Positions 26,219 through 64,000 of a stretch of DNA of 64,000 nucleotides are shown here, in pieces. The stretch lies in contig JAQMWT010000028.1 in assembly GCA_029834535.1 (NCBI GenBank), forward strand, positions 326,624-390,623, given 5' to 3'. This stretch comes from Chrysophaeum taylorii (lineage: Eukaryota; Sar; Pelagophyceae; Pelagomonadales; Pelagomonadaceae). Below the pieces are notes generated by a model that ran no database searches, had not been told where the DNA came from, and was given only the letters and a program-made list of their open reading frames with translations. Both the position numbers and the translations under genes were made by a program. How positions within the stretch are numbered: the first letter of the stretch is position 1; every line of letters starts with the position of its first letter.

Positions 26219-26552
26219 CTGAAGACTCATCTCCCCCCGCTCAAATCGACTTATTACTCCGCCAGAAAAAACCGACTATGACATTGTGCGCGCATAAACA
26301 AACCATTGTCTGTTTGTTTGTCTTTAAATGTCGACTGCTAAGAGGGGGGTGTGTGGGGGGAGCATGAAGGATGTGGGTGGGTGTGTGGGGTAGGAGGGAT
26401 GTGCCCGACGCGCGGAGATAAGTGTTTGTCTTTAAATGCCGACTGCTAAGAGGGGGGTGTGTGTGGGGAGCATGAAGGATGTGGGTGGGTTTGTGGGGTA
26501 GGAGGGATGTGCCTGACGGGGTTGAGATTGTTTGTCTTTAAATGTCGACAAG
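26219..26552. repeat. ~107-bp tandem modules flanking the repeat unit
   Basis: After the SEC14-like gene come two and a partial third copy of a module that starts TTTGTCTTTAAATGTCGACT and continues with a G-rich GGGGGGTGTGTGGGG stretch and a GTGGGTGGG block. Copies start at about 26318, 26426 and 26531, a period of 106-108 bp. The same module occurs in reverse orientation near 27630-27700, 57820-57900 and 61170-61245, so it belongs to the repeat family. Confidence 0.8.
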
Positions 26553-27535
26553 TGCAGGCCAGTAAGTTCGCCAGTAAGTTCACCTGGTCCCAATCTCTAA
26601 CCCCAGTAAGTTCACCTGGTCCCAGTAAGTTCACCTAGTCCCAATCTCTAACCCCAGTAAGTTCGGCGTGAGCCCACTCGTGCTCACATCCACTCACCCC
26701 ACTCTCCTTCGAGCTCGTCGCTCTCACCTCCGCCAATCTAAGCTGCTTTGATCCGTACACGCCGCTAGCCCTTGCGTTCACTCTAAAAACCCCAGTAAGT
26801 TCACTTGGTCCCAGTAAGTTCACCTGGTCACTTAGTTCACCTAGTCCCAATCTCAAACCTTAGTAAGTTCACGTGGTCCCAGTAAGTTCACCTACCGTGC
26901 GCGTGTAGACGCCGGGAGGGGGCTTATCGGTATTGCGCAGCACGTGTGGGGTAGGGTGGAGTCGTCGACCCAGATGAGTATATCTCCTCGGGGTTGCCGA
27001 TCGACAGGGAGCCACGTAGAGCTGGACGTGGCAGAATACGGGCTTGTGGGCAAGAGGACGCCGACCTCGCAGGGCGTCTGGCCCTGGCTCTTGGTGATCG
27101 TTTGGCGTCGGCGGGCCTTAAGGGATACAGGTTGGAGGAGCCTCGGTGACACGACACGATCGATCATGTATCTGGTACCGTTGCAGTGGCCGTGCGACGG
27201 GTCGAGGTTGCGAAGACATTAAGCTCGCGATCAAAGTCAGCATGCCGTTGGTTGTCAGGGAGTTGAAAACTCGACTGTAAAGAGAGAGGCGTCGTCTTCC
27301 GACCCAGCCTAGTCAGCCGAAAAGAACTCCGACGCCTCGTCTCCGGGAAAAAAAGGCCGCGGTCATGCGCGCGTTGTCAGCATCGACAACATCGTTTCGA
27401 CGGGGCGTGAGAATGGCGCGCTGAAAGAGCCGCCGCGGGTCGCGGAAATAGTCTGCGAGGTCGCCGTAGACGGCTTGGTGGATCACTGTCTGGCTCTCGC
27501 GCCTACCTGATCCTTACCTTAAATCGGGTATTTTA
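26553..27535 (-). mobile_element. Helitron-derived repeat unit A
   Basis: On the minus strand (27500 down to about 26910) this encodes a decayed C-terminal fragment of a Helitron/PIF1-family helicase. It holds a FQRAILTPRRNDVVDADNAR-like piece, then LNSLTTNGM, then in another frame LRNLDPSHGHCNGTRYMI, TITKSQGQTP and QLYVALCRSA. These correspond in order to the family's 'RAILTP', 'LNSLTPSGMP', 'LRNLDP-x-x-G-x-CNGTR', 'TINKSQGQT' and 'QLYVALSRV' motifs. The remaining ~350 bp (26553-26900) is the AGTAAGTTCACCTGG block. It forms an inverted repeat with unit B. Confidence 0.8.
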
Positions 27536-27759
27536 AAAAAACAATCTCTGTTCATAAGGTGAGGGTAGGAATGTAGGAATGCCGGTCCTGGTGTGTGCGA
27601 GTGCCCGGGGCTATATATACCCCTGTGCCGTTGCCTACCCCACAAAACCCACCCACATCCTTCATGCTCCCCACACGCACCCCCCTCTTAGCAGTCCTAA
27701 CTACTAATCGACAGATGTTTGTCTGTCTGTCTGTCTGTTTGTCTGTTTGTCCCTCGATT
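27536..27759. other. Spacer of the large inverted repeat
   Basis: Unique and simple sequence between inverted units A and B: a TATATATA block at 27613, one reversed copy of the TTTAAATGTCGAC-associated module, the recurring TAACTACTAATCGACAGATG boundary motif and a (GTCT)n run at 27716-27750. Confidence 0.6.
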
Positions 27760-28745
27760 TAGGGTAAGGATCAGGTAGGCGCGAGAGTAAGGATCAGGTA
27801 GGCGCGAAAGCAAGACAGTGATCCTCCAAGCCGTCTACGGCGACCTCGCAGACTATTTCCACGAGCCGCGGCGGCTCTTTCAGCGCGCCATTCTCACGCC
27901 CCGTCGAAACGATGTTGTCGATGCTGACAACGCGCGCATGACCGCGGCCTTTTTCCCGGAGACGAGGCGTCGGAGTTCTTTTCGGCTGACTAGGCTGGGT
28001 CGGAAGACGACGCCTCTCTCTTTACAGTCGAGTTTTCAACTCCCTGACAACCAACGGCATGCTGACTTTGATCGCGAGCTTAATGTCTTCGCAACCTCGA
28101 CCCGTCGCACGGCCACTGCAACGGTACCAGATACATGATCGATCGTGTCGTGTCACCGAGGCTCCTCCAACCTGTATCCCTTAAGGCCCGCCGACGCCAA
28201 ACGATCACCAAGAGCCAGGGCCAGACGCCCTGCGAGGTCGGCGTCCTCTTGCCCACAAGCCCGTATTCTGCCACGTCCAGCTCTACGTGGCTCTCTGTCG
28301 ATCGGCAACCCCGAGGATACCCTCTTCTGGGTCGACGACTCCACCCTACCCCACACCTGCTGCGCAATACCGATAAGCCCCCTCCCGGCGTCTACACGCG
28401 CACTATAGGTGAACTTACTGGGACCACGTGAACTTACTGGAACCAGGTGAACTTAAGGAGGTTAGAGATTGGGACTAGGGAAATTTAGTGACCAGGCGAA
28501 CTTACGGGGACCAAGTGAACTTACTGGGGTTTTTAGAGTAAACTCAAAGGTTAGCGGCGTGTGCGGATCAAAGCAGCTTAGGTTGGCGGGGGTGAGAGCG
28601 ACGAGTTCAAATGAGAGTGGGGTGAGTGGATGTGAGCACGAGTGGGTTTACGTCGAGCTTACTGAGGTTAGAGATTGGGACTAGGTGAACTTAACGGGAA
28701 CAGGTGAACTTACTGGGGTTAGAGATTGGGACTAGGTGAACTTAT
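27760..28745 (+). mobile_element. Helitron-derived repeat unit B (inverted)
   Basis: Reverse-orientation copy of unit A. The helicase fragment reads on the plus strand from about 27820 to 28400 with the same motifs and the same frame change between the LNSLT and LRNLD motifs. It is followed by a block with TAGGTGAACTTACTGG motifs and the conserved segment around GATCAAAGCAGCTTAG. Together A and B form inverted arms of nearly 1 kb around a ~220-bp spacer. Confidence 0.8.
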
Positions 28746-28934
28746 TGGCTGCACTTATGGCCCCTTTTTATGATCCGATTCGGATCACTCCATACAGGGT
28801 AAGTAATAAGAGCGTGGTACCGTTTTGTTCCGCGTGGCGTCGTCCGGGTTAATCAAGAGTACCATCCATTTTGGCGCGAGGCCTCGACCTCAAGCGCGTT
28901 GAAATCTTGAGAAAAAGGCATCGGAGCCAGGCTC

Positions 28935-30622: not shown

Positions 30623-33600
30623 ATGAAGAAAGTGGTCAACAAGAGCGCGGAGGAGCGGCGGCGGCGGCGGCAGCGACGCGAGTCAGCTCGGCGCGAGGCG
30701 GAGAGCAGCGACAGCAGCTCGAACGAGGAGCTCCCGGCGAAGCCGACGTTGGTGACCGAGGATGAGGTGGAGCGCGAGGCGCAGGCATTCGTCGAACGGA
30801 TCACGATGCGGCTCGAGCGACGCAAGTCGGAGGTTGCGTCGCCGGTGGTGCACCAGGGACGATCGAACTCGAGCGGCAAGCTTTTGGAGATCACGCCAGA
30901 ACACCTGGAAAAATGGGACGCGTCGACGAGCGACTCGTCGCTGAGCGACGTCGACCTCGGCCCGCCGACCTGGAACACGTCTCAGGGCTTTGCGGAGGAC
31001 TTGGAGCGGACCGTCCTCAAGCGCGACGACGTGGCGACGCCCAAGAAGCCCCGCTTCTCGGCGGGCAGGCTCTCGTTCCTTTTCTCGCCCAAGACGACGA
31101 CGACGAAGAAAAACGACGAAGAACCGTGGCGACCGCCACCGCCCCCGAACACCAAGGCCCCTCGCCGCGCCACGCTCCAGGCCCACCCGCCGGCCGTCGT
31201 CCCGCCCCCGCCGCAGGACCCGCGCGTCCCGCCCGACCAGGTCCGTCGTGCGTCGCGCGCCCACCTCGCTTCGTTCGCAGCCAATAACGAGGACCCGGAA
31301 CAGACGCTCGCCCAGATCATCGAGGAGACGGCCGACGAAAATCACGACAACCCGCCGCAGGAAGAGGCGGTAGTGTCGGAGGCGTCGGACGCGTCGCTCG
31401 AGCAAAACGCGCTCGCGGGCGGCGGGCCTCCGCTAGCCGACGCAGGCGGTGGCGCGCGCCGCCGCTCCTCCATCGACCAAGGTGTTGGCCGCCGCGCGTC
31501 AGTAGCGGACGAGATCAAGGTTGCGACGGACGGTGCGATTGAAGGTGTCTTCTTGGAGAACCCGACCGACGAGGTCGTGGAGGAGGTGGTTCTGTTTGAC
31601 GCGAGCAAAACCTCCTCTCAGCCTGTTGAGTCAAAGGAAGGTGATCCCTCCCCATCAACTCGCGTTGCATTGCCCCACACGCCGACGTCGTCGCCGAATG
31701 AAGAGGGGGCAGCTCCCGTTGCCGCCAAGCCGCCGGTGCCGCGGGACGAAAGTACTACGAGCGTTGTCTTTCAACCGCCGTCTCCAGACGCAGCGCCTGC
31801 GCAGCCATCACTGCGCGGCGAGGGCGTGTGTCGTCAAAGTAGCGACGCTGATAACGTCGAAGAGGCGCCGCAAGGTGCCGACGACTTTAGCGACGACGAC
31901 GACGAAAAGACGGCGCTGCCGTATCCTCTTTCTCGAGAAGAGTGCGCCCACAAAGAGCAGCCTTTAGCGCATGGCGAGCTTGCGGTCTCGCCAAGTGTTC
32001 TGACGCCTTCGAACATCGAGGTGCACGACGGTTCGCCGACGCCAAGTCGCCGAGTCTTTAGCGAACAGGACGACGACGACGACGAAGATACGTTCGATGC
32101 CAACGAATTCAAGACGCTCAAGCGCATATTTACCCCAGGAGAAGACGACCTGGAAGATCCATTCTCTTCGCTTCCAAATAGCCTCGACGACAGACTCGAG
32201 CCGATTCCCGAGGGCGACGAGGAGACGATCGAGTCGACGGTGACATCAATCACACATGAAACGGAATTTTCTCACAGTCGAGGCGCGAATCCGAGCGACG
32301 ATGGGAGTCACACTATGGATGGCAGCCTTGAAGAGGGCGAAGCTGAGCAATTATCGGCGGAGACCATCCTTGAGACCACAGTCGGTAGCTGCGGTGGCAC
32401 TTTCGAGGAAGAGACAGCTGTGCAGACAGAAGCGAGGGTGGTGCAAACGAACGCCGACCTCTTCGGCGAGGAATGCGAGGTCGTTCAGACTCGAGCTATC
32501 ATGGAACAGACGAAGGCCGGAGTTGCTGCCCGCATCGTCAATGAAAACGAGCTAGAAGAAGTGAGATTGGAGGAGACGAGGGCTAACGGAACCATCGAGG
32601 AAGAGGTAGCCATGCCGACAAAAGCGAGGAAAGAGCAGAAGGATGCAGCGGCTGTCTACGGCACTATCCAGAAAGACGAAGCTGTGCCGACAGCCACTAG
32701 AGTGGAGTTGGCGAACGCCGCAGGTGCTGACGGCATCGTCCAGGTAGCTACGCAGACAGATGCGAGAGTGGAACACAAGAACGCCGACAGCACTCCCTTC
32801 GAGGTAGCCGTGCAGACCGAAGCGAATCTGGAGCGGGAAGAGGTAGCCGTGCAGACAGAATCGGGGTTGATTACGGCAAACGCCGACAGGATCGTCGACG
32901 ACGAGGTGGCCGTGCAAACCAATGCGATCGCGGAGCAATCGGAAACGGCAACTACCAACGATACTAACAACGTTGGCGTATCCGTGCAGACAGAATTGAG
33001 TATGGAGCAGATGAACACCAAATGTAGTGTCGAAGTGGTAGCCGTGAAAACTGAAGAGTGGCTGGAGCTGGAAGAGGTAGCCGTGCAGACGGAAGTTGAG
33101 GCTGAGCAAACGAATGCCGACGGCGCGGTCACTAAGACCGAGATAGCTGTGCAGACGGAAGTTGAGGCGGATCAGATGAATGCCGAAGGAGTGGTCAAAA
33201 AGACCGAGATAGCCGTGCAGACAGAAGTTGAGGCGGATAAGATGAATGCCGACGGCGCTGTCAAGAACGAGGTAGCTGTGCAGACAGAAGTTGAGGCGGA
33301 GCAAACGAACGCCGACGGAGCGGTCAAGACCGAGATAGGCCTGCAGACGGAAGTTGAGGCAGAGCACGCGAATGCCGACGGCGCAATCAAGAACGAGGTA
33401 GCCGTGCAGACGGAAGCGGAGGTGGAAATGACGGACGCCGACGGTGTCGTCGATGAAGATGCAGCCACGCAAGCAGAGGTGAGGCTTGAGCAGGCGAGCG
33501 ACGTTTTAATTGGCATCTCCGAGGCGAATACGACGACGACCAATGACAATTTCACGGTCGAGGCCCAACAACAACAACAACATCGACGAACGGACAACAG

Positions 33601-34788
33601 CTACGAGTACGAATCAAGGTTGGCTGTGGAGCGCAAGCTAATGACAGAAACACTCGAGGTGGCGCTGGCGGAGTTGTCTGAGCAGTGTCGCGTGGAATTC
33701 GTGCAAATGCAACAAGGCTATGAGTCGAGACTAGCGGATGAGGCACTGCAGTCCGCGCAGGTGATCCGGCGACTGCAAGTTCAGATCGAAGAGCTGGAGG
33801 CGTCGCTCCACGCAAGGGTGCGCGAGTGCGAGGAGCTTCATCGCACGATCGGGTCGACCCGCGTCGCCGCAAAAATTAGCGACGAAGCGGAGATAGCGCA
33901 CGCTGTCGAGATTAAAGTGCGAGAGAAGGAGCGCGAACACAAGGCCGTGTTGTCGGCCGCGCTGCTCGGCCAAGCCACCGATTTTCAACAACGCGAGACC
34001 CAGCTCGTCACACAGTACCAGGCGGCGATTTTCGAGCAAAAGGAGGCGCTCGCGCGGGCCCGGGTAGCGTCGGCTCGATTCGATGCTGTCGAAGCGGATC
34101 TTTACGCAAAGCACGCCGACGAGCGCGCGGCATGCCAGGCGGCGTTCGACGCTAAGCTCGACGCGGTAAAGCAAAAGACCGACTTCGAGATCGGTCGTGT
34201 CACGCGCCGCCTCTCGGCCGACGAGACTCGCAAGCGCGAGTTAGCCCTCGACGGGCTTCGCGGCGAGTACGAACGGCGACTCACGATGGAGCTCGCAGAG
34301 CAGCGTGCCGAGCTAGAAGCTACCCAGGAGAAGGCCATCGCGACCCTCGAGTCCCAGCACAACAATCGCCTCAGCACTGTCGTGCAGCGCCTGTGCGAAG
34401 AGAAGGACCGCCACCACGCCGAGCAGCTGGCCATTGCGCTCGCAAGGAACAACGACGACCATGCGAGACGCCGCGAGGCCTTTGCCTCAGACATCGCCAA
34501 CAAGATGGAACGCCAGCGCAAGCGTAGCGAGCAAGCTTATGCACAAGCCTCCCGCCGGTGAGTATGCGAGTTGTGCTTCCTTTGGTGACACGCTTGGCGC
34601 GCAGCTACGACGATATGCGTACTACGCTTGAACTGGCCGCGAGCTTGGTGCAGACCGGAAATGGTGACGCCGCCTTGCTAAGCGTCCTGCCGACGCCGGC
34701 GAACACGTGGTCTACGTCGACACCAGCCGCTACCAAAACCAAACGAAAGAAAGACATCGTTCACCACTACGCCAGTGGCCTCCAATGA
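30623..34788 (+). CDS. Large coiled-coil protein with VQTE repeats
   Basis: Join of 30623-34557 and 34605-34788 across a 47-bp intron (donor GTGAGT, acceptor GCGCGCAG) gives 1,372 residues. The N-terminal third is basic then Pro/Ser-rich and disordered, with acidic runs. About residues 590-960 hold many degenerate repeats of roughly 20-24 residues centred on AVQTE (for example VAVQTEVEAEQTNADGA), encoded at 32.4-33.5 kb. From about residue 985 to the end is a long coiled coil. A QQQQQ tract precedes it. No motor or enzymatic motif is seen; a cytoskeletal, centriolar or flagellar scaffold is plausible but unproven. The intron call rests on the clean splice signals and the continued coiled-coil-like sequence in exon 2. 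Confidence 0.78.
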
Positions 34789-41502: not shown

Positions 41503-44220
41503 TTAGATACCGACGAGGGCGGACTCATTGACGACGTCGGCCGAGTCGAGGTCGTCGACGTCGCCGTGGATGTGCTGAACTCGCTCGAGGAAGGTGGCCA
41601 TGTGCATAAAGACTTCGAGGAGGAAGTCGAGCTGCTTGGGCGGGGGGAGGGCCCCGAGGCGGACGACCTCGACCCGCTGGTTAGGCTCGTCAAAGCGGAG
41701 ATTGGACCTCAAGGCATCAGGGACCTCCCGGCAGAGAGTTGCCCAGGAGGGTGCATTGAGGTTTGGGGCCGAGACGATGGCAGAGGCAGGCACGTCCGAG
41801 GTCGACGCTTGTAGTTGTTGTTGTTGTTGTTGTTCGAGGCGTATGGCGTCGAAGCCGAGGCGGGCGGCGTTGCACTCGAGCATTCTGAGCTTGACGGCGA
41901 GTTTGAGGTTTGGGGCGAGGGGGGCCTCTTGTCGCCAGGTGTTGATTAGGTGAATGACGGCCGGGAGGTCGTCGGCACGATGGAGGGCGTCGAGGTCGTC
42001 GGGGTCGACGTCGAAAATCTGGTCTCTAACGGGCAAGCGAGCTCTGCACTCGTCGACGGGGGCGATGTCGAGGGCTCTGAGGCGATGGAGTTCGTCGTTG
42101 AGCATGCGCGTGTAGAGGTCGCCACCGACGTAGCGCGCCACTCTTCCCGACTGGCGCGTCCCAAACAAGGCGCCGGCGCCGCGTATTTCGAGGTCCTTCT
42201 TAGCGAGTTGGGGTCCGCCGTGTCGCGTGGAAGTTTCTATCGCGGCGAGCCGGGCGTACGCGTTTCGCGACAAGGTTTCTCGCGGGTGCAGGAAGCAGGC
42301 GACGGCGGGGCGGTCGCTGCGACCGACGCGGCCGCGGAGCTGATGCAAGGTCGCGAGGCCAAATCTCTGGGATTCCTGGATGATGATCGTGTTAACGCGC
42401 GGCAGATCGAGTCCGTTCTCGACGAGAGTCGTCGCGACGAGAACGGGACGCGTCAAGTTCGTCCCCGCAGCGAAGTCGGCCATGATACTCGCGACGTTGG
42501 GCAAGTTGCCGTGCGCGAAGACGACGTTGGGGGCGACGTCGGCGCGGCCCGTGTTGCCCAGCAGCCTCTTGACCCGGTTGATCGCGGGGTCGATGTCGAT
42601 GATGTGAGGGACGACGTAGAAGCACTGGCCGCCGCGCGAGAGCTCGCGGTTAAAGAGGGCGGCGATGCGCGCGTCGTCCCCGGTAGTGCCGGGCGAGTCG
42701 GGCATGACGTACGTCACGGTTTCGCCGCGACCGGGAGGGGGTTGCGGCAGCTCGGAGACGTCGCGAATACCCGACAAAGCCGCGCCGAGCGTGCGGGGTA
42801 TGGGCGTCGCCGAGAGCGTCAGGACGTCGACGTCCACGCACATCTCCTTGAGCTGCTCCTTTTGGGTGACGCCGAAGCGCTGCTCCTCGTCGATGATCAA
42901 CAGCCCGAGACGGCGCCAGTTCTGCCGTCGCGAGAGCAGCGCGTGAGTGCCGACGGCGACGTCGCATTCGCCGGACGCGATCGCCACGCGAACGCGGTTG
43001 TACTCTGCGCGGGGCTTGAGCGGCGGCGGATTGGTCGTCGCGTCCTTGCGCGGCCGTCCGCGCGCCGGCGGGTCGTTGTCTCGCGACTGCTCGCGCTCGA
43101 ACGCCTTCAGCACGAGCCTCCCCGACTCGGCCTGGTTCGCCCCCGTCTTGGACATGCCCAACAGCAGCTCGACGCGGATCCCGAGGGGGCCGAGCCGCTC
43201 CCGAAGCGTGTTGTAGTGCTGCGTGGCGAGGATCGTCGTCGGCGCGACGATCGCCGCCTGCTTGCCCGACTTGACGGCGATCGCCAGAGCGCGCATCGCC
43301 ACTTCCGTCTTGCCGTAGCCCACGTCCCCAAACACCAAGCGGTCCATGGGATGCGCGCGCCGGCACATGTCCTCCTCGATGTCGAAAATCGTCTTTTTCT
43401 GGCCCTCGGTGAGCTCGAACCCGAGACCCTCTTCGAGCAACCGCTGGTCCTCCTCCGACAGCGGCATCGACGGCGGCCGCTCCCGACTGCTGCGCGCCGC
43501 CGCGAGCGCGACGAGCTCGCGCGCGTGTTGGCGCGACGCCTCGACCGCGCGCTTGCGCCGGTTGAGCCACGTCATCGTTTGACTCAACTTTGAGAGTTTT
43601 GGCATCCCCGCGTCGTCATCAAATTGGTCCTTCTCGCCAGTCAACTTGAGCCCCCGCAACGTGGGCATGGAAGCGTCGTCGAGCGGAACCGAGTCGTCGA
43701 CGACGTCGTCGCGAAGCTTTGGCCCCGGCTGCAGCCCCGCGACGCGTCGCTGCTCGCCCAACGTCTCGCTCCCTCGTCGGAGCAGCGTCAACACCTTGGC
43801 GGCGTCGGCGGCCGAGACCGAAACTACGCGATCGGCGAATCGCAGCAGCACGGGCCAGTCGTCCTCCTCGCCTTCCGCGTGCCACCGACCCGCGTACGTG
43901 CACACGCCGCGATCGTAGTGAACGACGTAGTCGCCCTCGTACACAACCGTCGCATCGAGGCCCCGCCCGCCGATTCGCAACGGTACCACCTTGCGCTCGA
44001 TCTCCTCGTTGGAGGCCTCGTCGTAGTACTTCCTCTCCCGCACCTTATCTTTCTTCTTCTTCGGCGGCCCAAAACGCGTCACCCACGCGCGCGTCTCCGC
44101 CCCTCGAGCCGCCACCGCCGCTCGGGACGACGACAACCCATGAAGCGATTGGAAGCCGTCGCCGACGCGCAGCGACAGAGCGCTGACGACAGCGACGACG
44201 ACTCCACGGTATTGTTGCAT
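41503..44220 (-). CDS. Mfd-like transcription-repair coupling helicase, plastid-type
   Basis: A 905-residue SF2 helicase of the Mfd (TRCF) branch. Residues 90-165 form the RNA-polymerase-interacting CarD/RID-like domain (GDYVVHYDRGVCTYAGRW). The helicase core has Walker A GDVGYGKTE from Gly298, DEEQRFG, SATPIPRTL, the Mfd/RecG-type SGIRDVSELPQPPPGR, and motif VI around HQLRGRVGRSDRPA. Bacterial Mfd is about 1,150 residues; the N-terminal UvrB-homology module that recruits UvrA is absent here. The C-terminal ~200 residues are diverged, with a polyGln insert. The N-terminus is a signal-like MQQYRGVVVAVVSALSLRVG followed by DGF, which fits a bipartite presequence with Phe at the transit-peptide start. 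It may remove stalled plastid RNA polymerase (inference). Confidence 0.9.
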   Translation of the reverse strand: MQQYRGVVVAVVSALSLRVGDGFQSLHGLSSSRAAVAARGAETRAWVTRFGPPKKKKDKVRERKYYDEASNEEIERKVVPLRIGGRGLDATVVYEGDYVVHYDRGVCTYAGRWHAEGEEDDWPVLLRFADRVVSVSAADAAKVLTLLRRGSETLGEQRRVAGLQPGPKLRDDVVDDSVPLDDASMPTLRGLKLTGEKDQFDDDAGMPKLSKLSQTMTWLNRRKRAVEASRQHARELVALAAARSSRERPPSMPLSEEDQRLLEEGLGFELTEGQKKTIFDIEEDMCRRAHPMDRLVFGDVGYGKTEVAMRALAIAVKSGKQAAIVAPTTILATQHYNTLRERLGPLGIRVELLLGMSKTGANQAESGRLVLKAFEREQSRDNDPPARGRPRKDATTNPPPLKPRAEYNRVRVAIASGECDVAVGTHALLSRRQNWRRLGLLIIDEEQRFGVTQKEQLKEMCVDVDVLTLSATPIPRTLGAALSGIRDVSELPQPPPGRGETVTYVMPDSPGTTGDDARIAALFNRELSRGGQCFYVVPHIIDIDPAINRVKRLLGNTGRADVAPNVVFAHGNLPNVASIMADFAAGTNLTRPVLVATTLVENGLDLPRVNTIIIQESQRFGLATLHQLRGRVGRSDRPAVACFLHPRETLSRNAYARLAAIETSTRHGGPQLAKKDLEIRGAGALFGTRQSGRVARYVGGDLYTRMLNDELHRLRALDIAPVDECRARLPVRDQIFDVDPDDLDALHRADDLPAVIHLINTWRQEAPLAPNLKLAVKLRMLECNAARLGFDAIRLEQQQQQQLQASTSDVPASAIVSAPNLNAPSWATLCREVPDALRSNLRFDEPNQRVEVVRLGALPPPKQLDFLLEVFMHMATFLERVQHIHGDVDDLDSADVVNESALVGI

Positions 44221-44879: not shown

Positions 44880-47800
44880 TTAGCCGAGGCAGATAGAGAC
44901 GGCGAGAGAAAAGGCAGAGAGAGGTGTAAAAGGCGGACTGAAGTCTAAGTGGAAGCGGTTCGCGGAGACTTTGCAAAACTGGAGGACAACGGCCTCGTCG
45001 TCAGCGTGGTCGATCGACTCGCGGAGCGCGTCCTTGGCGGCGGCGACGAGCTGAAAGTTCTTGCCCGAGGCGACGCGGCCGCGACCGCGGAAGTTGAGGA
45101 GGTACATGCCGTCGCGAATGACGGGATCGCGCTGGACGAAGACGGGGATCGAGGGGTCGACCGTATCTTGCTGGAGGGCGTGAGCGCTGAGCGAGGGTAT
45201 CGCGCTGGCCTCGGCTCCGTAGGCGTGGGGCGCCAGAAGGACACAGATCTCGCGGGGCATCGAGCCGTTGGGCCTTTCCTGGCCGAAAATGGCGATCTCG
45301 CCGCTCGAGGGCGAGGTCGTCGCGGCCGAGTGGCGGTCGTCGCCCGCGACAGAATTCGACTCCTTGAGGCGAGCGATGACGCGCTTCGGAAAGTTGGTGC
45401 GACTCGATGTCGGCGCCGAGACAGTTTGGTCGTAGACGATGTAGTTGGAGCTCCCCGAGGCGGGGCGCCGCGCCGTGAGAAGCATCTTGGTCGGCTCGGC
45501 CGAGAGGAAGAGCTCGAATTGGTACGACGACATCATGCCGACGGCCTTGCGCTTGACGATCGTGTGGAGCAGCGGGAGCCGCGGGTCGTCGGGCGTCACG
45601 TCGAGGGGCGTCGCGTTGAGTCCGCGGTACGCCATGTCGCGGAGCGACGACGGCGACGACGGGTCTGAGTCTCCCAAGTTTTGCGCGGCGGTCCTGCTGG
45701 CGCGAACGGACGACGACAATCCAGACTGGGCCGACTTGGGGGCGAAGGTCTTGGGCTTGTTTGCTTCGTCCCAGAGCTTCTCGAGGATGAACCAGCGCCT
45801 GAGCCGTCTGATGCGCGTCGAGAGCCGGTCGCGCGAGATCTTCGACGGCTCGCGGACCAACGCCGGCGGCATTTCCTTGTTTTCCATGTCGATGGCCGCC
45901 GTGTCCTCGTCCTCCTCGTCCTCCTGGTCGCCGCCGTCGGTCTTGTTATTGAATTGCCCGTTGTTGTTGTTGCGCGCTCGCGCCGCCGCGTCCTCCTCGT
46001 TGGATAATACCGGATCCTCCGGCGGCTCGTCGTTGCCCGAAGACGGTCCCGCCTCGCCTCCCTGTTTTGGTCGCTCGTCGTAGGCGCTCCGCGCGTCGCG
46101 CTTTTCTTTTGCTTCTCGCTGCGCGCGCCGCTCGGCCTCCTGCGCGGCGAGCTCGGCCTCCTTGGCTTTCCGCTCGGCCTCCTTCCGCTCGGCCTCCTTC
46201 CGCGCGGCCTCTTCGCGCTTCCGCTGCTCCTCGGCATCCTTTTCCTTTTGTTCCTCGGCGAACGTGTCGGCCTGGCCGCTCGCCTCGATCGCCGCCTCGG
46301 CCTCGACTTCGGCGCTCTCGAGGCACGAGCGGACGTCGCCGAGGCCCTGGCGCAGGGCCTTGAGCGGCTCGGTGGCCCAGAGGACGAGGATCGCCTCGAT
46401 TTCTTCCTTGAGGCGCGCGAGTTTGGTTTCGGCTACGTCGGCGTGCGCGCGGATCTTCTCGCCTTCGGCGTTGGTCTCGGCGATGGCGAGGCGGCGAGCG
46501 GCCGCCTCGGCGCGCACGCAGATGCGCTCGGCCGAGCGCATCTCGTCTTGAGTTTTGGTGACTTCCCTGCGCGTTTCGTCGGTGCGCTCTTTGGCACTCG
46601 TGACGCTCGCCGCGTATCGCGCGACGTCCTCGGCGAGGCGCTTGGCCGTCGCGGCGTGCTCGGCCGCCGCCGTCGCCTTGCTCGTCGCCAGGTCTGCCGC
46701 TTCGCGCGCCGGTGCGCAGTGCGGGATCTCGTCGGCCGCCTTGGTCGCCGACGTTGCGACGCGCGCGGCCTGCGTGGCCGCGTTCGTCGCGAGCGTCGCA
46801 TTCTTCCTGGCCTCGCCCGTCGAGGTCGCGGCGTCTTCGCCACCTTCGTCGATCTCGGCGAGCGGGAGCGCGTCGAGCGCGAGGGCCGCCTGCTTGGCGG
46901 CGTCGCGCGCGCGCGAGTTCTGGGCGTGCACGTCCTCGAGCAACTTGCTCGCCGCCTGGGCCGACTCCTTGGCCTCGACGAGGCGACGCGCGATCACGGT
47001 CGCGCGCTCGGGGTCGGCGGCCTCGTCGAAAGTGAGGGCCTCGTTGATGCGCGCGAGGGCCGAAGCGGGAAAAAAGACGCGCGTCATGCCGAGCTTGTAG
47101 GCATCCGCGGGCACCTCGAACGCCTGGAGGATGCAGGCGACGACGAGGTCGTTGGGCGCGTTCTCGAACACGGACCTCGCGCTCTGCGGCATGAGCTTGA
47201 CGAGGTTGGCGTACTTGACGCGGTGCGGGAGGCCGACGCGCAGGACCTCGGTTGCCGCGACAATGCCGAGGGCGCGCAGCTGCTCGGAGACGTAGGCGCG
47301 GTCGAAGACCCCCGGCACCATCTTGGGCGTGGGCTTGATGCACCGGACGAATCCGCAGTCGGTCGCCTTGAGCGTCGCGCTGAGCGCCGTCATCGACGAG
47401 ACGAAGCGGCCGGCGACCGTCTGCGCCGAGCGTCGCCGCATCGAGGCGCGGCCCTCGGGCATCGCCTCCAGAGCCTCGGCCTCCTGCTGGTCGCCGAGGG
47501 CCGCGACGAACGGGGACGTCGACTCGGCGACGAGCGCCTGGAGGCCGTCGGGAACGGCGTCGAGGTTCGTGACGACCCATCCGTCGGTGTCCTTCTTGAT
47601 GACGGTGTACCCGACGATTCCAGCGTAATGTTTGACGTGGAACATGTGTCGGCGATCCTGAGCGCGCGTCTTGGCGAGGACGCGCCCGTGCTCTCGGCCG
47701 ACGTTCGAGAGAAACGAGGCGTCGCGCCTATCGTCGGAAAGCGCCGTCGCCCCCGCGTTGCCCGTCATGCACTGCGCGTCGAGGATCCGCAAAATCCCCG

Positions 47801-48081
47801 GGTTGAGGCCCTTGCCCGCGAGCAACTCGAGCGTCGCGCGCGAGTCGGGGGGTTTGAGGTCGCGGAGGCCGTCGAGCAAGATTCCCTCGGCCTCGTAGAG
47901 CTCGAGCTCGGCCGCGAACACCGAATCGCAAAACAGCTGCTGCAGCGCCTCGTTCGCGTAGTTTATCAGGAGCGTCTCGAGCCCGTTCCCGCCGTCGAGG
48001 GTCTCGAACCCAAAGATGTCGAGGATCCCGATGTACCGCGCCTTGGGCGGCGGGGGCGGTCTGTTGCTTTCGTCCTTTTTT

Positions 48082-48115
<34 letters not shown>

Positions 48116-49256
48116 GGAGGGCCTTGTTGCACTGGGAGACGAGGGCGCCGAAGAGCGCGCCGTAGAGCCAGCGGCACGCGGCGTCGCGCGCCGTCGCGGC
48201 GTCCGAGGGCGAGCGCGGGACCTCGAGCTTATCGTCCCTGGTGACGACGACGCGGCGCGCGAGCGTGTTGACGACGCGCGAGAGATGGACGTTTCCGAGG
48301 TGCAGCAACTTAGCCGCCGTCGCGAGCGGCGTGTCGGGGGCTTCGCTGAGCGAAGCGATCTGCTCGCAGGACACCGAGTCCTCGGTCGCACCGACCTCGA
48401 CGTCGGCGAGCGTCGCGATGGCGCCGAGCACGCACCACGTCGCCTCGGCCTGGTCACGTCCTATCCCGATGGCCGCCATCGCGCGCTGGACGGCCTCGAA
48501 GGCGGGAATCGACCAGTGGGACCTGTTGTCGACCTTTTCGCTGTCCTCGACGAGGTCCTCGGCGGCGCTCGAGGGCATGCAGCGGTGTTTGTGGTCGGGC
48601 GGCGCGAGGAGCGACGCGAGAAGCGGCGCGGGACGGTGCTTGAGCATCATGTGGACCGCGTGGAAGTTGCGCTCGCCGAGGTTTTGGCGCACGACCCGCG
48701 ACTTTTCGAGGAGGTACGTCTCGAGCTCGCCGCCCCGAAGCCGGCCCGAGACCCCGCGCGGATCGAAAAGCAACTTGACAAAGCGCCCGAAGCGCGACGA
48801 GTTCGCGTTCCTGTGCGTGCTCGCGTTCCCAAAGGCCTCGAGCACGGGCGAGATGGCGACGATGCGCGCGGCGAGGTCGAGGTCGCCGTTCTGGCCCGCG
48901 GCGCGCCGCGTCAGGTACTGGACGACGATCTTGGACGATTCGGTCTTTCCCGCGCCGGACTCGCCGCTCACGACGAGCGACTGGTCGGGCGCGCGGCCTC
49001 CGCGGATTCGCTGGTACGCGAGTTCGGCGAGGGCGTTGGGGTGTGGCAGGCTCGGATCGAAGGGCGCGTCGCAAAACGTCTCGAACCCCAGGCCCTCTAC
49101 CTTTTGCAAAGGGTTGACGGCGACCAGCACCGTCGACACGTAGGTGTACGGCTCCTTCGCCTTGAGTAGCCGCGTTTCGAGGTTTTCGAGCATCGACGCC
49201 TCGTCTAGATGCTCGAGCGCCGTCATGTCGGGCACCGACGACTCCTCCTCCCCCAT
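44880..49256 (-). CDS. Myosin motor fused to a C-terminal Tubby domain
   Basis: A 1,458-residue intronless gene. Residues 1-740 are a myosin head without the N-terminal SH3-like fold: P-loop GESGAGKT (98-105), switch I NANSSRFGRF (150-159), switch II DIFGFE (413-418), actin-interface FVRCIKP, and converter LGMTRVFF. An Asp run (from a GTC repeat at 48084-48116) lengthens a surface loop. No canonical IQ motif follows; instead residues 755-1080 are Ala/Lys/Glu-rich helix, then a strongly charged KEAERKEAERKAKEAE coil (about 1040-1090) and an acidic linker. Residues from about 1225 to the end form a Tubby domain: YQFELFLSAEPTKMLLTARR, YLLNFRGRGRVASGKNFQLV, VLQFCKV and a final FSPPFTPLSAFSLAVSICLG. 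Tubby domains bind PI(4,5)P2, so a membrane-tethered motor is inferred. Confidence 0.9.
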
Positions 49257-56713: not shown

Positions 56714-56738
56714 TCTGTCGATTAGTAGTTAGGACAAG
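56609..56738. repeat. Palindromic (GTCT)n/(GACA)n block
   Basis: The boundary motif CTAACTACTAATCGACAGAT-like sequence leads into (GTCT)n, which switches at about 56653 into (GACA)n and ends in the reverse-complement boundary motif ACATCTGTCGATTAGTAGTT. The whole is an imperfect palindrome of about 125 bp. Single boundary motifs with (GACA)n recur in the units at 57936, 60145, 62298 and 63398. Confidence 0.85.
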
Positions 56739-57655
56739 TGGAGGCCAGTAAGTTCATCTAGTCCTAATCTCTAACCCCACCTGGTCCCATTAAGTTTCAT
56801 ATAAGTTCACCTCTGGTCAGTAAGTGCACCTAGCTCACACCCACTCCGTTGAGCTCGTCGCTCTCACCCCCGCCAATCCAAGCTACTTTGATCCGCACGC
56901 GCCACCAACCTTTGAGTTTACTCTTAAAACCCCAGTAAGTTCACCTGGTCCCAGTAAGTTCACCTGGTCACTCAGTTCACCTAGTCCCAATCTCAAACCC
57001 CAGTAAGTTCACCTGGCCCAGTAAGCTCACCTACAGTGCGCGTGTAGACGCCGGGAGGGGGCTTATCGATATTGCGCAGCACGTGTGGGGTAGGGTGGAA
57101 TCGTCGACTCAGAAGAGCATATCCTCGGGGTTGCCGATTGACAGAGAGCCACGTAGAGCTGGACGTGACAGAAGACGGGCTTGTGGGCAAGAGGACGCGG
57201 ACCTCGCGGGGCGTCTGCCTCTGGCTCTTGTTGATCGTTTGGCGTCGGTGGGGCTTGAGGGATACAGGTTGGAGGAGCCTCGGTGACACAACACGATCGA
57301 TCAAGTATCGGGTGCCGTTGCAGAGGCCGTACGACGAGTCGAGTTTGCGAAGACTTTAAGCTCGAGATCAAAGTCGGCATGCCGTCGGTTGTCAGGGAGT
57401 TGAAAACTCGACTGTAAAGAGCGAGGCGTCGTCTTCCGACGCACCTAGTCGGCCGAAAAGAACTCCGACGCCTCGTCTCCGGGAAAGGCCGCGGTCATGC
57501 GCGCGTTGTCAGCATCGACGACATCGTTTCGACGGGGCGTGAGAATGGCGCGCTGAAAGAGCCGACGCGAGTCGTGGAAATAGTCTGCGAGGTCGCCGTA
57601 GACGTCTTGGAGGATCAATGTTTGGCTCGCGCGCCTACCTGATCCTTACCCTGGA
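56739..57655 (-). mobile_element. Helitron-derived repeat unit C
   Basis: Same layout as the other units: AGTAAGTTCACCTGG block (56745-57035) and minus-strand helicase fragment (57040-57625), slightly more diverged (for example TINKSQRQTPREV, SSVTSSS). It carries an extra 3' module at 57655-57900 not present in the head-to-tail array. Confidence 0.78.
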
Positions 57656-57956
57656 TCGGGGAGCAATCGCAGCAGGACGTCACCCTTCGTCGCACATACG
57701 TCCGGCGGTAGCATGCGTACGACCTCCGGGCGGGGCCCGCCCTCTCTTCGCCTGCCCCACGACTCGGCGATGACCCCGACTAGGTCCCGCATACTTATCT
57801 CCGCCCGTCCGGCACATCCCTCCTGCCCCACAAATCCACCCACATCCTTCATGCGCCACACACACCCTCCCCTCTTAGCAGTCGACCTTTAAAGACAAAC
57901 AAACAAACAGACAGACAGACAGACAGGCAGACAAACATCCGGCGATTAGTAGTAAG
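57655..57956 (+). repeat. Extra module of unit C, related to 7650-7890
   Basis: Contains AGCATGCGTACGAC and TCGGCGATGACCCCGACTAG, then the reversed TTTAAATGTCGAC-associated G/C-rich module and a (GACA)n run with the boundary motif. Homologous to the relic at 7650-7890, which shows the element family once included this segment elsewhere. Confidence 0.7.
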
Positions 57957-59118
57957 GAAGACAGATACTGTGCAAGCAAGGTTTTATCGGCGTTGTGCAT
58001 TTACTCAAACGTTAGTAAAAAATATTACGAAATTCCTTTACTTTACCTATTTTCCTTTACTTTGCCTAATTTACTCTACTTTACCATTACGTTACAATCG
58101 TTTCAAAATGATGTTAAAGTAATTCTGTTACGTTACAATTGTATCACCACCCATGTCGACGAGTCGAATTGAGCGACGTCGCGGGGACTTGTAGACGATG
58201 TCTGCGTTACGGACCCCGCATGCGACGGCCAGGCCGGCCGAAGCGGAGCAGTCGCCTCCGATGGCATGCCACAACGTGGAGAATGAGATCGAGGGTGGTT
58301 CTGCGACGGTGAGGAGGAGGACGGCAACGCCTTCATGCGACTGCGCCGGCGTCCGACTCAGATGATGATGACGACAACGAGCCCGACTTCTGGGCTGAAG
58401 CCATTCCTCAGCCCGAAGAGCAGCAGCAACCTGATTAATCGGAGGAGGCGATGCCGGACTTCAAGGTGGAGTTCGAACGCATCTTCATGAAGCGGGTCCA
58501 GTACGCTCGCACCATCGAGTGGCTCAAGGAATTTCCTGACGACCTCTCGGATTCCTCAGACGCCTCCAGGATCCCAAGCTCTTGGACATGATGTTGCTCA
58601 ACGTCGGCAAGCTCTACACGCGAATAGAAGGCAACCAGGTGTGCGGCTACCTTCCAGACATCGCACGAGGCTCGAACGGCAATATCGGCGCGCTGCCTGC
58701 TGAGAGCTTCTGCGAGCGCATCATCTCCGCTGCCAACATTTTCATGACTGAGGGCGACACCCTCCTGAGCGACGAGGAGCTTGTGATGCTAGTGAGCCTG
58801 CGCATGAACAAGGAGTTTATTAAGTGGGCTCGAGACAAGTACGGCCACATCCTCAAGAAGTTCGAGTTCAAGTCCGAGATCATTCCCCTTGAAGAAAACA
58901 AAGGAGACGAGACGACTAACCACGAAGATTAGCCATTAAAAGCAAGCGAGTCCGCTCATCACATCGTTGCGTTGTGCTCCGTCTCTGCACGAGGCTGGGG
59001 CCAGAATAGAAATACAGCAAAATTAAATTTTCAGCCCGAGCATGCTGTAGTGCTCGACTTTTACTTTACGAATTACTTTACTCAAAAGGTGTGGTAAGTA
59101 ATGCTCGTTATTACATTA
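57957..59118 (+). mobile_element. hAT-like transposon remnant
   Basis: An AT-rich ~1.15-kb insertion between units C and D. At 58451-58932, across one frame break near 58575, it encodes the C-terminal end of a transposase. The part at 58582-58932 contains GALPAESFCERIISAANIFM, LLSDEELVMLVSLRMNKEFI, matching the hAT dimerisation region ('ipatSapsERvFS-x-ag...LspE-x-v-x-lv-l'). Subterminal DNA on both sides (57990-58140 and 59060-59118) is rich in TTTACTTTAC/GTAATTAC-like sequence, as often seen in hAT elements. Exact terminal inverted repeats and an 8-bp target duplication were not identified. Stop codons upstream of 58440 make it non-autonomous. Confidence 0.6.
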
Positions 59119-59121
59119 CAA

Positions 59122-60174
59122 GTGCAGGCCAGTAAGTTCACCTAGTCCCAATCTCTAACCCCAGTAAGTTCACCTGGTTCCCAGTAAGTTTCATATAAGT
59201 TCACCTGGTCAGTAAGTTCACCTAGCTCACACCAACTCCTTTGAGCTCGTCGCTCTCGCCTCCGCCAATCTAAGCTGCTTCGATCCGCACGCGCCGCCTA
59301 CCTTTGAGTGAGTTTACTCTAAAAACCCTTTGCTCTAAAACCCCAGTATGTTCACCTGGTCCCAGTAAGTTCACCTGGTCACTATATTCACCTATCCCAA
59401 TCTCAAACCCCAGTTAGTTCACCTGGTCCCAGTAAGTTCACCTACAGTGCGCGTGTAGACGCCGGAGGGGGCTTATCGGTATTGCGCAGCACGTGTGAGG
59501 TAGGGTGGAGTGTCGTCGACTCAGAAGAGCATATTCTCCGGGTTGCCGATCGACAGAGAGCCACGTAGAGCTGGACGTGACAGAAGACGGGCTTGTGGGC
59601 AAGAGGACGCCGACCTCGCGGGGCGTCTGGCCCTGGCTCTTGGTGATCGTTTGGCGTCGGCGGGCCTTACGGGATACAGGTTGGAGGAGCCTCGGTGACA
59701 ACGACACGATCGATCATGTATCTGGTACCGTTGCAGTGGCCGTGCGACGGGTCGAGGTTGCGAAGACTTTAAGCTCGCGATCAAAGTCAGCATGCCGTTG
59801 GTTGTCAGGGAGTTCAAAACTCGACTGTAAAGAGCGAGGCGTCGGCTTCCGACCCAACCTAGTCGGCCGAAAAGAACTCCGACGCCTCGTCTTCGGGAAA
59901 AAAAGGCCGCGGTCATGCGCGCGTTGTCAGCATCGACAACATCGTTTCGACGGGGCGTGAGAATGGCGCGCTGAAAGAGCCGCCGCGGGTCGTGGAAATA
60001 GTCTGCGAGGTCGCCGTAGACGGCTTGGAGGATCACTGTCTGGCTCTCGCGCCTACCTGATCCTTACTCTCGCGCCTACCTGATCCTTACCCTAAATCGA
60101 GGGACAAACACACAAACAGACAAACAGACAAACAGACAGACAGACAAACATCTGTCGATTAGTAGTTAGGACAA
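59122..60174 (-). mobile_element. Helitron-derived satellite unit D
   Basis: First unit of the right-end tandem array. Begins at AGTGCAGGCCAGTAAGTTC. AGTAAGTTCACC block to 59440, minus-strand helicase fragment 59445-60036, then (ACAA/GACA)n and the ATCTGTCGATTAGTAGTTAG boundary. Period to unit E is 1,053 bp. Confidence 0.82.
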
Positions 60175-61248
60175 GTGCAGGCCAGTAAGTTCGCCAGTAA
60201 GTTCACCTGGTCCCAATCTCTAACCCCAGTAAGTTCACCTGGTCCCAGTAAGTTCACCTAGTCCCAATCTCTAACCCCAGTAAGTTCGGCGTAAGCCCAC
60301 TCGTGCTCACATCCACTCACCCCACTCTCCTTCGAGCTCGTCGCTCTCACCTCCGCCAATCTAAGCTGCTTTGATCCGTACACGCCGCTAGCCCTTGCGT
60401 TCACTCTAAAAACCCCAGTAAGTTCACTTGGTCCCAGTAAGTTCACCTGGTCACTTAGTTCACCTAGTCCCAATCTCAAACCTCAGTAAGTTCACGTGGT
60501 CCCAGTAAGTTCACCTACCGTGCGCGTGTAGACGCCGGGAGGGGGCTTATCGGTATTGCGCAGCACGTGTGGGGTAGGGTGGAGTCGTCGACCCAGATGA
60601 GCATATCTCCTCGGGGTTGCCGATCGACAGAGAGCCACGTAGAGCTGGACGTGGCAGAATACGGGCTTCGCCAAGAGGACGCCGACCTCGCGGGGCGTCT
60701 GGCCCTGGCTCTTGTTGATCGTTTGGCGTCGGCGGGCCTTAAGGGATACAGGTTGGAGGAGCCTCGGTGACAACGACACGATCGATCATGTATCTGGTAC
60801 CATTGCAGTGGCCGTGCGACAGGTCGAGGTTGCGAAGACTTTAAGCTCGCGATCAAAGTCAGCATGCCGTTGGTTGTCGGGGAGTTCAAAACTCAACTCT
60901 TGAGAGCGAGGCGTCGTCTTCCGACCCAACCTAGTCGGCCGAAAAGAACTCCGACGCCTCGTCTCCGGGAAAAAACGGCCGCGGTCATGCGCGCGGCGTT
61001 GTCAGCATCGACAACATCGTTTCGACGGGGCGTGAGAATGGCGCGCTGAAAGAGCCGCCGCGGGTCGTGGAAACAGTCTGCGAGGTCGCCGTAGACGGCT
61101 TGGAGGATCAATGCCTTCCTGGCTCGCGGGCCTACATGATCCTTACCCTAAATCGAGGGACAACCCTCATACCCCACAAACCCACCCACATCATTCACGC
61201 TCCCCACACACACCCCCCTCTTAGCAGTCGACATTTAAAGACAAACAA
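60175..61248 (-). mobile_element. Helitron-derived satellite unit E
   Basis: Second tandem unit, period 1,074 bp. Its first ~330 bp are almost identical to unit A (26553-26900), including the GCTAGCCCTTGCGTTCACTC variant, which points to recent exchange between the two loci. The helicase fragment is at 60515-61111 (minus). It ends with the TTTAAA-associated module instead of a (GACA)n run. Confidence 0.82.
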
Positions 61249-62396
61249 GTGCAGGCCAGTAAGTTCACCTAGTCCCAATCTCTAACCCCAGTAAGTTCAC
61301 CTGGTCCCAGTAAGCTCACCTGGTCAGTAAGTTCACCTAGTCCAAATCTCTAACCCCAGTAAGTTCGGTGTAAACCCAATCGTGTTCACACACAAACTCC
61401 TTTGAGCTCGTCGCTCTCACCCTCCGCCAATCTAAGCTGCTTTGATCCGCACGCGCCGCCAACCCTTGAGTTTACTCTAAAACCCCGTAACTCACCTGGT
61501 CCCAGTAAGTAAGTTCACCTGGTCCACAAGTCAGCTCACCTAGTCCCAATCTCAAACCCCAGTAAGTTCACCTGGTCCCAGTAAGTTCACCTACAGTGCG
61601 CGTGTAGACGCCGGGAGGGGCTTATCGGTATTGCGCAGCACGTGTGGGGTAGGGTGGAGTCGTCGACCCAGAAGAGGATATCCTCGGGGTTGCCGATCGA
61701 CAGAGAGCCACGTAGAGCTGGACGTGGCAGAAGACGGGCTTCGCCAAGAGGACGCCGACCTCGCGGGGCGTCTGGCCCTGGCTCTTGGTGATCGTTTGGC
61801 GTCGGCGGGCCTCAAGGGATACAGGTTGGAGGAGCCTCGGTGACAACGACACGATCGATCATGTATCTGGTACCGTTGCAGTGGCCGTGCGACGGGTCGA
61901 GGTTGCGAAGACTTTAAGCTCGCGATCAAAGTCAGCATGCCGTTGGTTGTCAGGGAGTTCAAAACTCGACTGTAAGAGCGAGGCGTCGTCTTCCGACCCA
62001 ACCTAGTCGGCCGAAAAGAACTCCGACGCCTCGTCTCCGGGAAAAAAAGGCCGCGGTCATGCGCGCGTTGTCAGCATCGACAACATCGTTTCGACGGGGC
62101 GTGAGAATGGCGCGCTGAAAGAGCCGCCGCGGGTCGTGGAAATAGTCTGCGAGGTCGCCGTAGACGGCTTGGAGGATCACTGTCTGGCTCTCGCGCCTAC
62201 CTGATCCTTACTCTCGCGCCTACCTGATCCTTACTCTCGCGCCTATCTGATCCTTACCCTAAATCGAGGGACAACAAACAACAGACAGACAGACAACATC
62301 TGTCGATTAGTAGTTAGGACAAACATCACAAACCACCCACTCCTTCAGTCCCCAAACACACCCCTCTAGTCGACATTTAAAGTTAAAGACAAACAA
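61249..62396 (-). mobile_element. Helitron-derived satellite unit F
   Basis: Third tandem unit, 1,148 bp, with the helicase fragment at 61591-62180 (minus). A CTCTCGCGCCTACCTGATCCTTA motif is triplicated at its end (62190-62260), versus two copies in unit D and one in unit G, a sign of local slippage. Confidence 0.82.
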
Positions 62397-63423
62397 GTGC
62401 AGGCCAGTAAGTTCACCTAGTCCCAATCCTAACCCCAGCATTTTCACCCATTAAGTTCACCTAGTCCCAATCTCTAACCCCAGTAATTCGGCGTAAACCA
62501 ATCTTTATAGTTCGGCTAAACCCACCCCACTCAACCCCCTCTCCTTTGAGCTCGTCGCTCTCACCCCCGCCAATCAAGCTACTTTGACCCGCACACGCCG
62601 CTAGCCTTTGAGTTTACTCTAAAAACCTCAGTAAGTTCACTTGGTCTCAGTAAGTTCACCTGGTCACAAATTTCACCTAGTATCTAATAACTAACCCCAG
62701 TAAGTTCACCTGGTCCCAGTAAGTTCACTGGTCCCAGTAAGTTCACCTACAGTGCGCGTGTAGACGCCGGGAGGGGGCTTATCGGTATTGCGCAGCACGT
62801 GTGGGGTAGGGTGGAGTCGTCGACCCAGAAGAGGATATCCTCGGGGTTGCCGATCGACAGAGAGCCACGTAGAGCTGGACGTGGCAGAAGACGGGCTTGG
62901 CCAAGAGGACGCCGACCTCGCGGGGCGTCTGGCCCTGGCTCTTGGTGATCGTTTGGCGTCGGCGGGCCTTAAGGGATACAGGTTGGAGGAGCCTCGGTGA
63001 CAACGACACGATCGATCATGTATCTGGTACCGTTGCAGTGGCCGTGCGACGGGTCGAGGTTGCGAAGACTTTAAGCTCGCGATCAAAGTCAGCATGCCGT
63101 TGGTTGTCAGGGAGTTCAAAACTCGACTGTAAAGAGCGAGGCGTCGTCTTCCGACCCAACCTAGTCGGCCGAAAAGAACTCCGACGCCTCGTCTCCGGAA
63201 AAAAGGCCGCGGTCATGCGCGCGTTGTCAGCATCGACAACATCGTTTCGACGGGGCGTGAGAATGGCGCGCTGAAAGAGCCGCCGCGGGTCGTGGAAATA
63301 GTCTGCGAGGTCGCCGTAGACGGCTTGGAGGATCACTGTCTGTCTCGCTCGCGGGCCTACCTGATCCTTACCCTAAATCGAGGGACAAACAAAAGACAAA
63401 CATCTGTCGATTAGTAGTTAGGA
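62397..63423 (-). mobile_element. Helitron-derived satellite unit G
   Basis: Fourth tandem unit, 1,027 bp. Helicase fragment at 62706-63336 (minus) with the same frame change as the other units, then the boundary motif at 63398-63423. Confidence 0.82.
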
Positions 63424-64000
63424 GTGCAGGCCAGTAGTTCACCTAGTCCCAATCTCTAACCCCAGTAGTTTTAGGTCTGGTCCCAGTAAGTTTCATATAG
63501 TTCACCTGTCAGTAAGTTCACCCTACTCACACACAACTCCTTTGAGCTCGTCGCTCTCGCCTCCGCCAATCCAAGCTGCTTTGATCCCCACACGCCGCTA
63601 ATCTTTGAGTTTACTCTAAAACCCCCAGTAAATTCACCTGGTCCCAGTAAGCTCACCTGGTCACTAATTCCCTATTCCCAATCTCAAACCCCAGTAAGTT
63701 CACCTGGTCCCAGTAAGTTCAACTACAGTGCGCGTGTAGACGCCGGGAGGGGGCTTATCGGTATTGCGCAGCACGTGTGTGGTAGGGGGAGTCGTCGACT
63801 CAGAAGAGTATATCTCGGGGTTGCCGATCGACAGAGAGCCACGTAGAGCTGGACGTGGCAGAAGACGGGCTTGGGCAAGAGGACGCCGACCTCGCGGGGC
63901 GTCTGGCCCTGGCTCTTGTTGATCGTTTGGCGTCGGCGGGCCTTACGGATACAGGTTGGAGGAGCCTCGGTGACAACGACACGATCGATCATGTATCTGG
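63424..64000 (-). mobile_element. Helitron-derived satellite unit H (cut by window end)
   Basis: Fifth tandem unit, cut at the window edge inside the helicase fragment. Its frame 63992-63723 shows the motif order without an internal stop: IDRVVVTEAPPTCI, TINKSQGQTPREVG, LPKPVFCHVQLYVALC. The array probably continues to the right. Confidence 0.82.

Follow-up and report, generated by a model that had tools for sequence, protein, structure and literature searches.

The 64,000-nucleotide window analyzed here (Chrysophaeum taylorii, contig JAQMWT010000028.1, positions 326,624 to 390,623) carries a gene whose predicted product joins a myosin head to a C-terminal Tub domain. This myosin-Tub gene occupies window positions 44880-49256 on the minus strand (-), as a single open reading frame (ORF) with an ATG start and 1458 codons plus the stop. 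From the N-terminus, the protein consists of a motor domain, a predicted helical neck, a low-complexity linker, and the Tub domain, and all of these features are encoded on the same (-) strand.

Myosin head and Tub domain in one frame

The motor domain spans residues 9-729 (47070-49232), as delimited by Pfam Myosin_head (PF00063; E = 4.2e-127, 425.6 bits versus a cut-off of 33.3) and by matches to solved structures. The head matched 150 distinct solved sequences at E <= 0.001, with a best score of 265.7 bits. Motif scanning located the P-loop GESGAGKT (residues 98-105, 48942-48965) and switch II DIFGFE (residues 413-418, 48003-48020), while switch I NANSSRFGRF (residues 150-159, 48780-48809) and the conserved motor motif FVRCIKP (residues 636-642, 47331-47351) were identified by both motif scan and alignment. 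All four lie at the positions expected of a myosin, and a complete Myosin_head with P-loop, switch I, and switch II, the hallmark of the superfamily, is present. Apart from Myosin_head and Tub, the only Pfam rows at E <= 1 were two sub-threshold AAA matches around the P-loop. Myosins generally follow the TEDS rule, with an acidic or phosphorylatable residue at one site, although the rule is not universal. Here the site is acidic, with D342 (48231-48233) aligned to the glutamate of the solved myosin 7dhw. Relative to 7dhw, about 19 residues are inserted before switch II, including a run of ten aspartates (residues 382-391, 48084-48113) coded by a tandem CGT repeat of 10.7 units at 48083-48114.

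Comparison with the solved structures was based on the best 60 of the 150 matches. The head match starts at chain residue at least 81 (81-105) in class II entries and at residues 8-12 in class I entries. Class II myosins have an N-terminal SH3-like domain, and these start positions indicate a head lacking such an extension. Assigning a class by the best solved match was attempted and rejected, since the scores of different classes were too close: 265.7 bits for 7dhw, 261.9 for Dictyostelium II, 256.1 for Ic, 244.9 for XV, and 238.0 for VI.

The Tub domain (PF01167) forms the extreme C-terminus, residues 1231-1454 (44895-45566). The match (E = 2.8e-21, 76.8 bits versus a cut-off of 27) extends over profile positions 12-252 of 256, an above-threshold match across the domain as found in members of the Tub family, whose fold is a closed beta barrel that encloses a central helix. 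The initial annotation had proposed a complete myosin head and a C-terminal Tub domain in one frame and had named beforehand a profile search without Tub at the C-terminus as one result that would overturn it. The search instead returned both domains far over their cut-offs. The motifs it had quoted, including KNFQLV (residues 1399-1404), VLQFCKV, and FSLAVSICLG of the Tub segment, are likewise all in the ORF. A single-sequence search of solved structures recovered TULP1 (2.9e-7), Tubby (5.9e-5), and TULP3 (9e-4), mainly through the last ~90 residues; a further row at E = 0.16 was an unrelated oxygen-evolving enhancer protein. Against three solved Tubby-family chains, hhalign in global mode gave an alignment of 223 columns (97.5%, 30% identity; E = 2.2e-11, a value that applies to a single comparison). 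The three-chain profile scored well over the C-terminal stretch only, with 28.6 bits.

Binding of phosphatidylinositol 4,5-bisphosphate (PI(4,5)P2), also suggested in the initial annotation, is plausible. We take K330 and R332 of Tubby to be its PI(4,5)P2-binding residues and chain index 90 to be residue 330. On this numbering, hhalign places R1296-L-K1298 (45363-45371) opposite K330-L-R332, the K-L-R of Tubby IGKLRS. MAFFT instead places R1292 and I1294 opposite K330 and R332, a register shifted by 4. Because the two registers disagree, the phosphoinositide site is regarded as probable and not as shown.

The two domains are connected by an uninterrupted frame, with no stop codon in 4.4 kb. 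Third-position GC ranged from 0.79 to 0.96 in all windows along the ORF. A codon table was derived from three genes elsewhere in the window (DRC4, glutamate synthase, and a DEAD/helicase protein). With this table, the ORF frame was the best-scoring of six in 28/28 overlapping 100-codon windows, linker windows included, and the tested upstream and downstream flanks scored below 0 in all six frames. The consistency of the ORF frame together with the negative flanks makes one gene much likelier than two, and the codon evidence speaks against any intron, or any boundary between genes, inside 44880-49256. The adjacent glutamate synthase gene starts at 49749 on the opposite strand, about 490 bases upstream of the ORF, leaving little room for an additional exon. 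Overall, the gene looks real and intact.

A predicted helical neck without detected IQ motifs

An IQ-motif lever with light chains is usual in myosins, although not universal. To this protein the initial annotation had attributed a long helical lever arm with no clear IQ motif, and both features were recovered. Scanning residues 736-870 with the six-position IQ consensus gave a maximum of 3/6. Within the head, which served as background, 22 of the 700 start positions scored 3 and 3 scored 4. As a positive control, we used the neck of L010, a myosin from the metagenome-assembled genome (MAG) H1_MAG_00039, where 5/6 positions were matched at three sites. Thus, no IQ-like site above background was found in the neck by a scan that detected them in the control. 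Pfam also reported no IQ in the myosin-Tub protein, a weak negative since it reported none in L010 either. The usual IQ-motif lever was accordingly not detected by the consensus scans.

AlphaFold2 run without relatives predicted helices at residues 749-795, 807-843, 848-929, 933-959, and 965-1059, so that the IQ-less neck/tail helices cover residues 749-1059 (46080-47012). The model of residues 701-1060 had a mean predicted local distance difference test score (pLDDT) of 75, falling below 60 ahead of residue ~750. The neck is predicted to be a discontinuous run of helices rich in Ala and in charged residues. A hydrophobicity period of 3.38-3.44 was observed in three windows spanning residues 771-910, where 6, 0, and 1 of 500 shuffles were equally strong. 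The last predicted helix, residues 965-1059 (46080-46364), is highly charged, and its second half resembles a single alpha helix; coding repeats at 46119-46211 fall within it. Opposite charges at i and i+4 are typical of single alpha helices. In residues 981-1050, 54% of the residues are charged, with 9 E/D-K/R and 6 K/R-E/D pairs at this spacing, and no hydrophobicity period was found there (34% of shuffles equally strong). Elsewhere in windows covering residues 736-1260, only 1156-1225, in the linker, stood out (period 3.66, 3/500 shuffles). For this region we tend to favor a stiff spacer over a strong coiled coil. Searching with the neck model, Foldseek returned 178 matches at E <= 10 and none at E <= 0.001, and the titles of 50 of the 178 indicate a mixed set of proteins, most of them helical. 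No fold is therefore claimed for the neck.

Between neck and Tub domain, the low-complexity linker of residues 1060-1230 (45567-46079) is in coding frame by third-position GC and codon scores. It contains a basic/hydrophobic stretch, DRLSTRIRRLRRWFILEKLW (RIRRLRRWFILEKLW), at residues 1143-1162 (45771-45830). This stretch might speculatively be a candidate membrane- or calmodulin-binding helix. It matches 3/6 IQ positions and lies outside the 12 largest hydrophobic moments.

Searches for relatives and other features of the window

Scans of the viral_contigs collection with the whole protein, the Tub segment, the head alignment, and the Tub alignment yielded no relative by tblastn, and none of the 9 loci matching a P-loop DNA pattern there was related to the myosin-Tub protein by tblastn. 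The tblastn positive control recovered the 14 records of the L010 file. In the genome_contigs collection, the whole protein retrieved nothing. The head alignment gave 86 candidate stretches there; 4 proved to be relatives, and a single Verrucomicrobiaceae MAG contained them all. No Tub-myosin was found in either collection. This MAG, H1_MAG_00039, contains 19 Myosin_head pieces; it gave no Tub match in a search that was silent in control genomes too, so absence is not implied. Several eukaryotic-type myosin genes were noted in it (L010-L013), the tail of L010 having PH domains. These myosins presumably represent eukaryotic contamination.

Besides glutamate synthase, which is split over two frames, probably by an intron, the window holds IF-3 and DRC4. 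The presence of DRC4, as given in the initial annotation, was borne out by a match to Pfam GAS (PF13851, E = 1.1e-61). A helicase at 41503-44220, bacterial-type and with an N-terminal extension, matched Pfam DEAD (1.6e-20) and Helicase_C (3.2e-11), and resembles bacterial TRCF/Mfd. Taken together, DRC4, the two-frame glutamate synthase, IF-3, and this helicase suggest a eukaryote with flagella and perhaps also plastids. An ORF of 1312 amino acids at 30623-34561 had no Pfam match at E <= 0.001 and contains a 63-bp minisatellite at 33074-33444. A repeat of ~1 kb, with near-full copies about 86-96% identical, occupies 26547-28762 and 56734-64000. The 26.5-28.8 kb part has two copies that face opposite ways, whereas the 56.7-64.0 kb part has about six sharing one orientation, the final copy being cut by the window end. 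The sequence CAGTAAGTTCACCTGG has 16 exact sites, all on the + strand.

Interpretation and comparison with known myosins

The protein is probably an unconventional protist myosin with a Tub cargo end, that is, a phosphoinositide-anchored actin motor or tether, and likely belongs or is related to the Tub-bearing myosin XXI. Passages of a 2014 survey (PMC3942036) describe myosin XXI of heterokonts and haptophytes, with tails that include IQ, WW, PX, and Tub, and place it in a myosin V-related assemblage. Membership in, or kinship with, these Tub-bearing myosins is most likely on the basis of those passages, with the caveat that the number XXI denotes other myosins in other schemes. Of the listed tail domains, Tub is present here, and Pfam at E <= 1 gave no WW, PX, or IQ. 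Given the acidic D342, the motor may act on actin without phosphorylation at the TEDS site. The helical tail would serve as a light-chain-free spacer or lever, and the Tub domain would bind PI(4,5)P2 in the plasma membrane, or else in a flagellar-base membrane. Thereby the protein could pull or tether actin against a phosphoinositide-rich membrane and could come off once the lipid has been removed by phospholipase C. The gene offers a full-length, single-frame example of a myosin type that has received little study, with a probable phosphoinositide sensor as its cargo end and a neck that seemingly lacks light chains. Such a protein would allow a simple test of whether PI(4,5)P2 alone places and releases a myosin.

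Several observations weigh against this interpretation. The single-sequence and three-chain-profile matches reach just the final third or so of the Tub domain, and the MAFFT register moves the putative lipid-binding residues. AlphaFold2 without relatives gave a mean pLDDT of 30 for the Tub segment with a few preceding residues, too low to inform on the fold. The ten-aspartate insert before switch II could impair the motor half, as the missing last Tub residues could impair the Tub half. Membrane binding, motor activity, and cellular place are all predictions from sequence.

An independent fusion, in which the head of another class or an orphan myosin gained its Tub tail apart from myosin XXI, is a substantial though less probable alternative. 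Scores of the head against solved myosins differ little from class to class, at ~234-266 bits among the best 60 of 150 matches, and convergent tail acquisitions are on record in passages of PMC3942036. Against it stand parsimony and the head-Tub combination those passages report from heterokonts and haptophytes. It is very unlikely that the locus instead comprises two genes or transcripts, one for a myosin that stops within the linker and another for a small Tubby-like protein, joined by chance read-through or alternative 3' ends. The linker is indeed of low complexity, in-frame Met codons occur at residues 1124, 1129, 1208, 1241, and 1242, and the sequence-based case for one gene, built on frame and codon scores, is no substitute for transcripts. 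The 4.4 kb without a stop codon, the 28/28 windows, and the two flanks negative in six frames nevertheless oppose a division, and Tub-tailed myosins are already in print in passages of PMC3942036.

The initial annotation had also suggested a possible location near the flagellar base, for which there is no direct support; its basis was DRC4, ~30 kb away, and analogy to animal Tubby-like proteins. By this analogy, Tub would hand cargo to cilia as TULP3 does while the myosin carries it along actin. The organism does have a DRC4 gene, and animal TULP3, which traffics membrane proteins into cilia, provides a model, animal Tubby-like proteins having an N-terminus that binds intraflagellar transport complex A (IFT-A). 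However, DRC4 says nothing about the myosin-Tub protein. It lies ~30 kb off, and neighboring eukaryotic genes seldom share function. Lineages that lack cilia, flowering plants among them, likewise have Tub domains. We consider a flagellar-base motor of this kind doubtful. Similarly improbable is a distinct Tubby-myosin subclass without calmodulin-type light chains. In it, a passive helical lever, Ala-rich and charged, would link a motor that is always on to an anchor switched by phosphoinositides, and the flagellar base might be its site. If such a subclass were real, lipid signaling, not calcium, would govern where the motor pulls.

Compared with the Tubby/TULP core (1I7E, 1C8Z, 1S31, 2FIM, 3C5N, 8FH3), the protein shares a near-full Tub profile in C-terminal position and the motifs KNFQLV, LNFRGR, and LDF..P....AF. 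It differs in that its Tub domain is fused to a motor, is divergent over the N-terminal two thirds, has an insert of ~11-12 residues after KNFQLV, and lacks a SSFDSKLACE-type ending. Class I myosins have a membrane-binding tail, a feature this protein would in principle share, and among the best 60 of 150 matches the head match begins near the start of class I chains. Unlike class I, however, this protein has Tub, with no Myosin_TH1 (Pfam, E <= 1) and no IQ found. Class V/XI myosins have an IQ array and a DIL tail, whereas neither DIL (Pfam, E <= 1) nor IQ (consensus scan) was seen here.

Among published proteins, passages of PMC5378345 describe a few myosins without IQ in which a single alpha helix follows straight after the motor, for example, stramenopile Aplanochytrium Myo31A and a Guillardia orphan. 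The present protein likewise has no IQ and a charged helix after the motor, but here ~215 residues of predicted Ala-rich helix intervene between motor and charged helix. The word Tub does not occur in the main text of PMC5378345, PMC5583752 (2017), or PMC2375034 (2007), and passages of a chromerid-genome paper mention Tub proteins apart from myosins. Open-access literature searches, mostly at listing level, turned up no experimental work on a myosin with a Tub tail. The initial annotation had asked whether such a fusion was described as a myosin class; it is, as the myosin XXI of PMC3942036 in the passages cited above. Some XXI members share with this protein a myosin head and a Tub (PF01167) tail, although IQ is listed among XXI tail domains and none was detected here. 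Since Tub-bearing myosin XXI is already published, the fusion does not amount to a novel type of motor but adds a further case of a known head-Tub architecture, one with an unusual neck.
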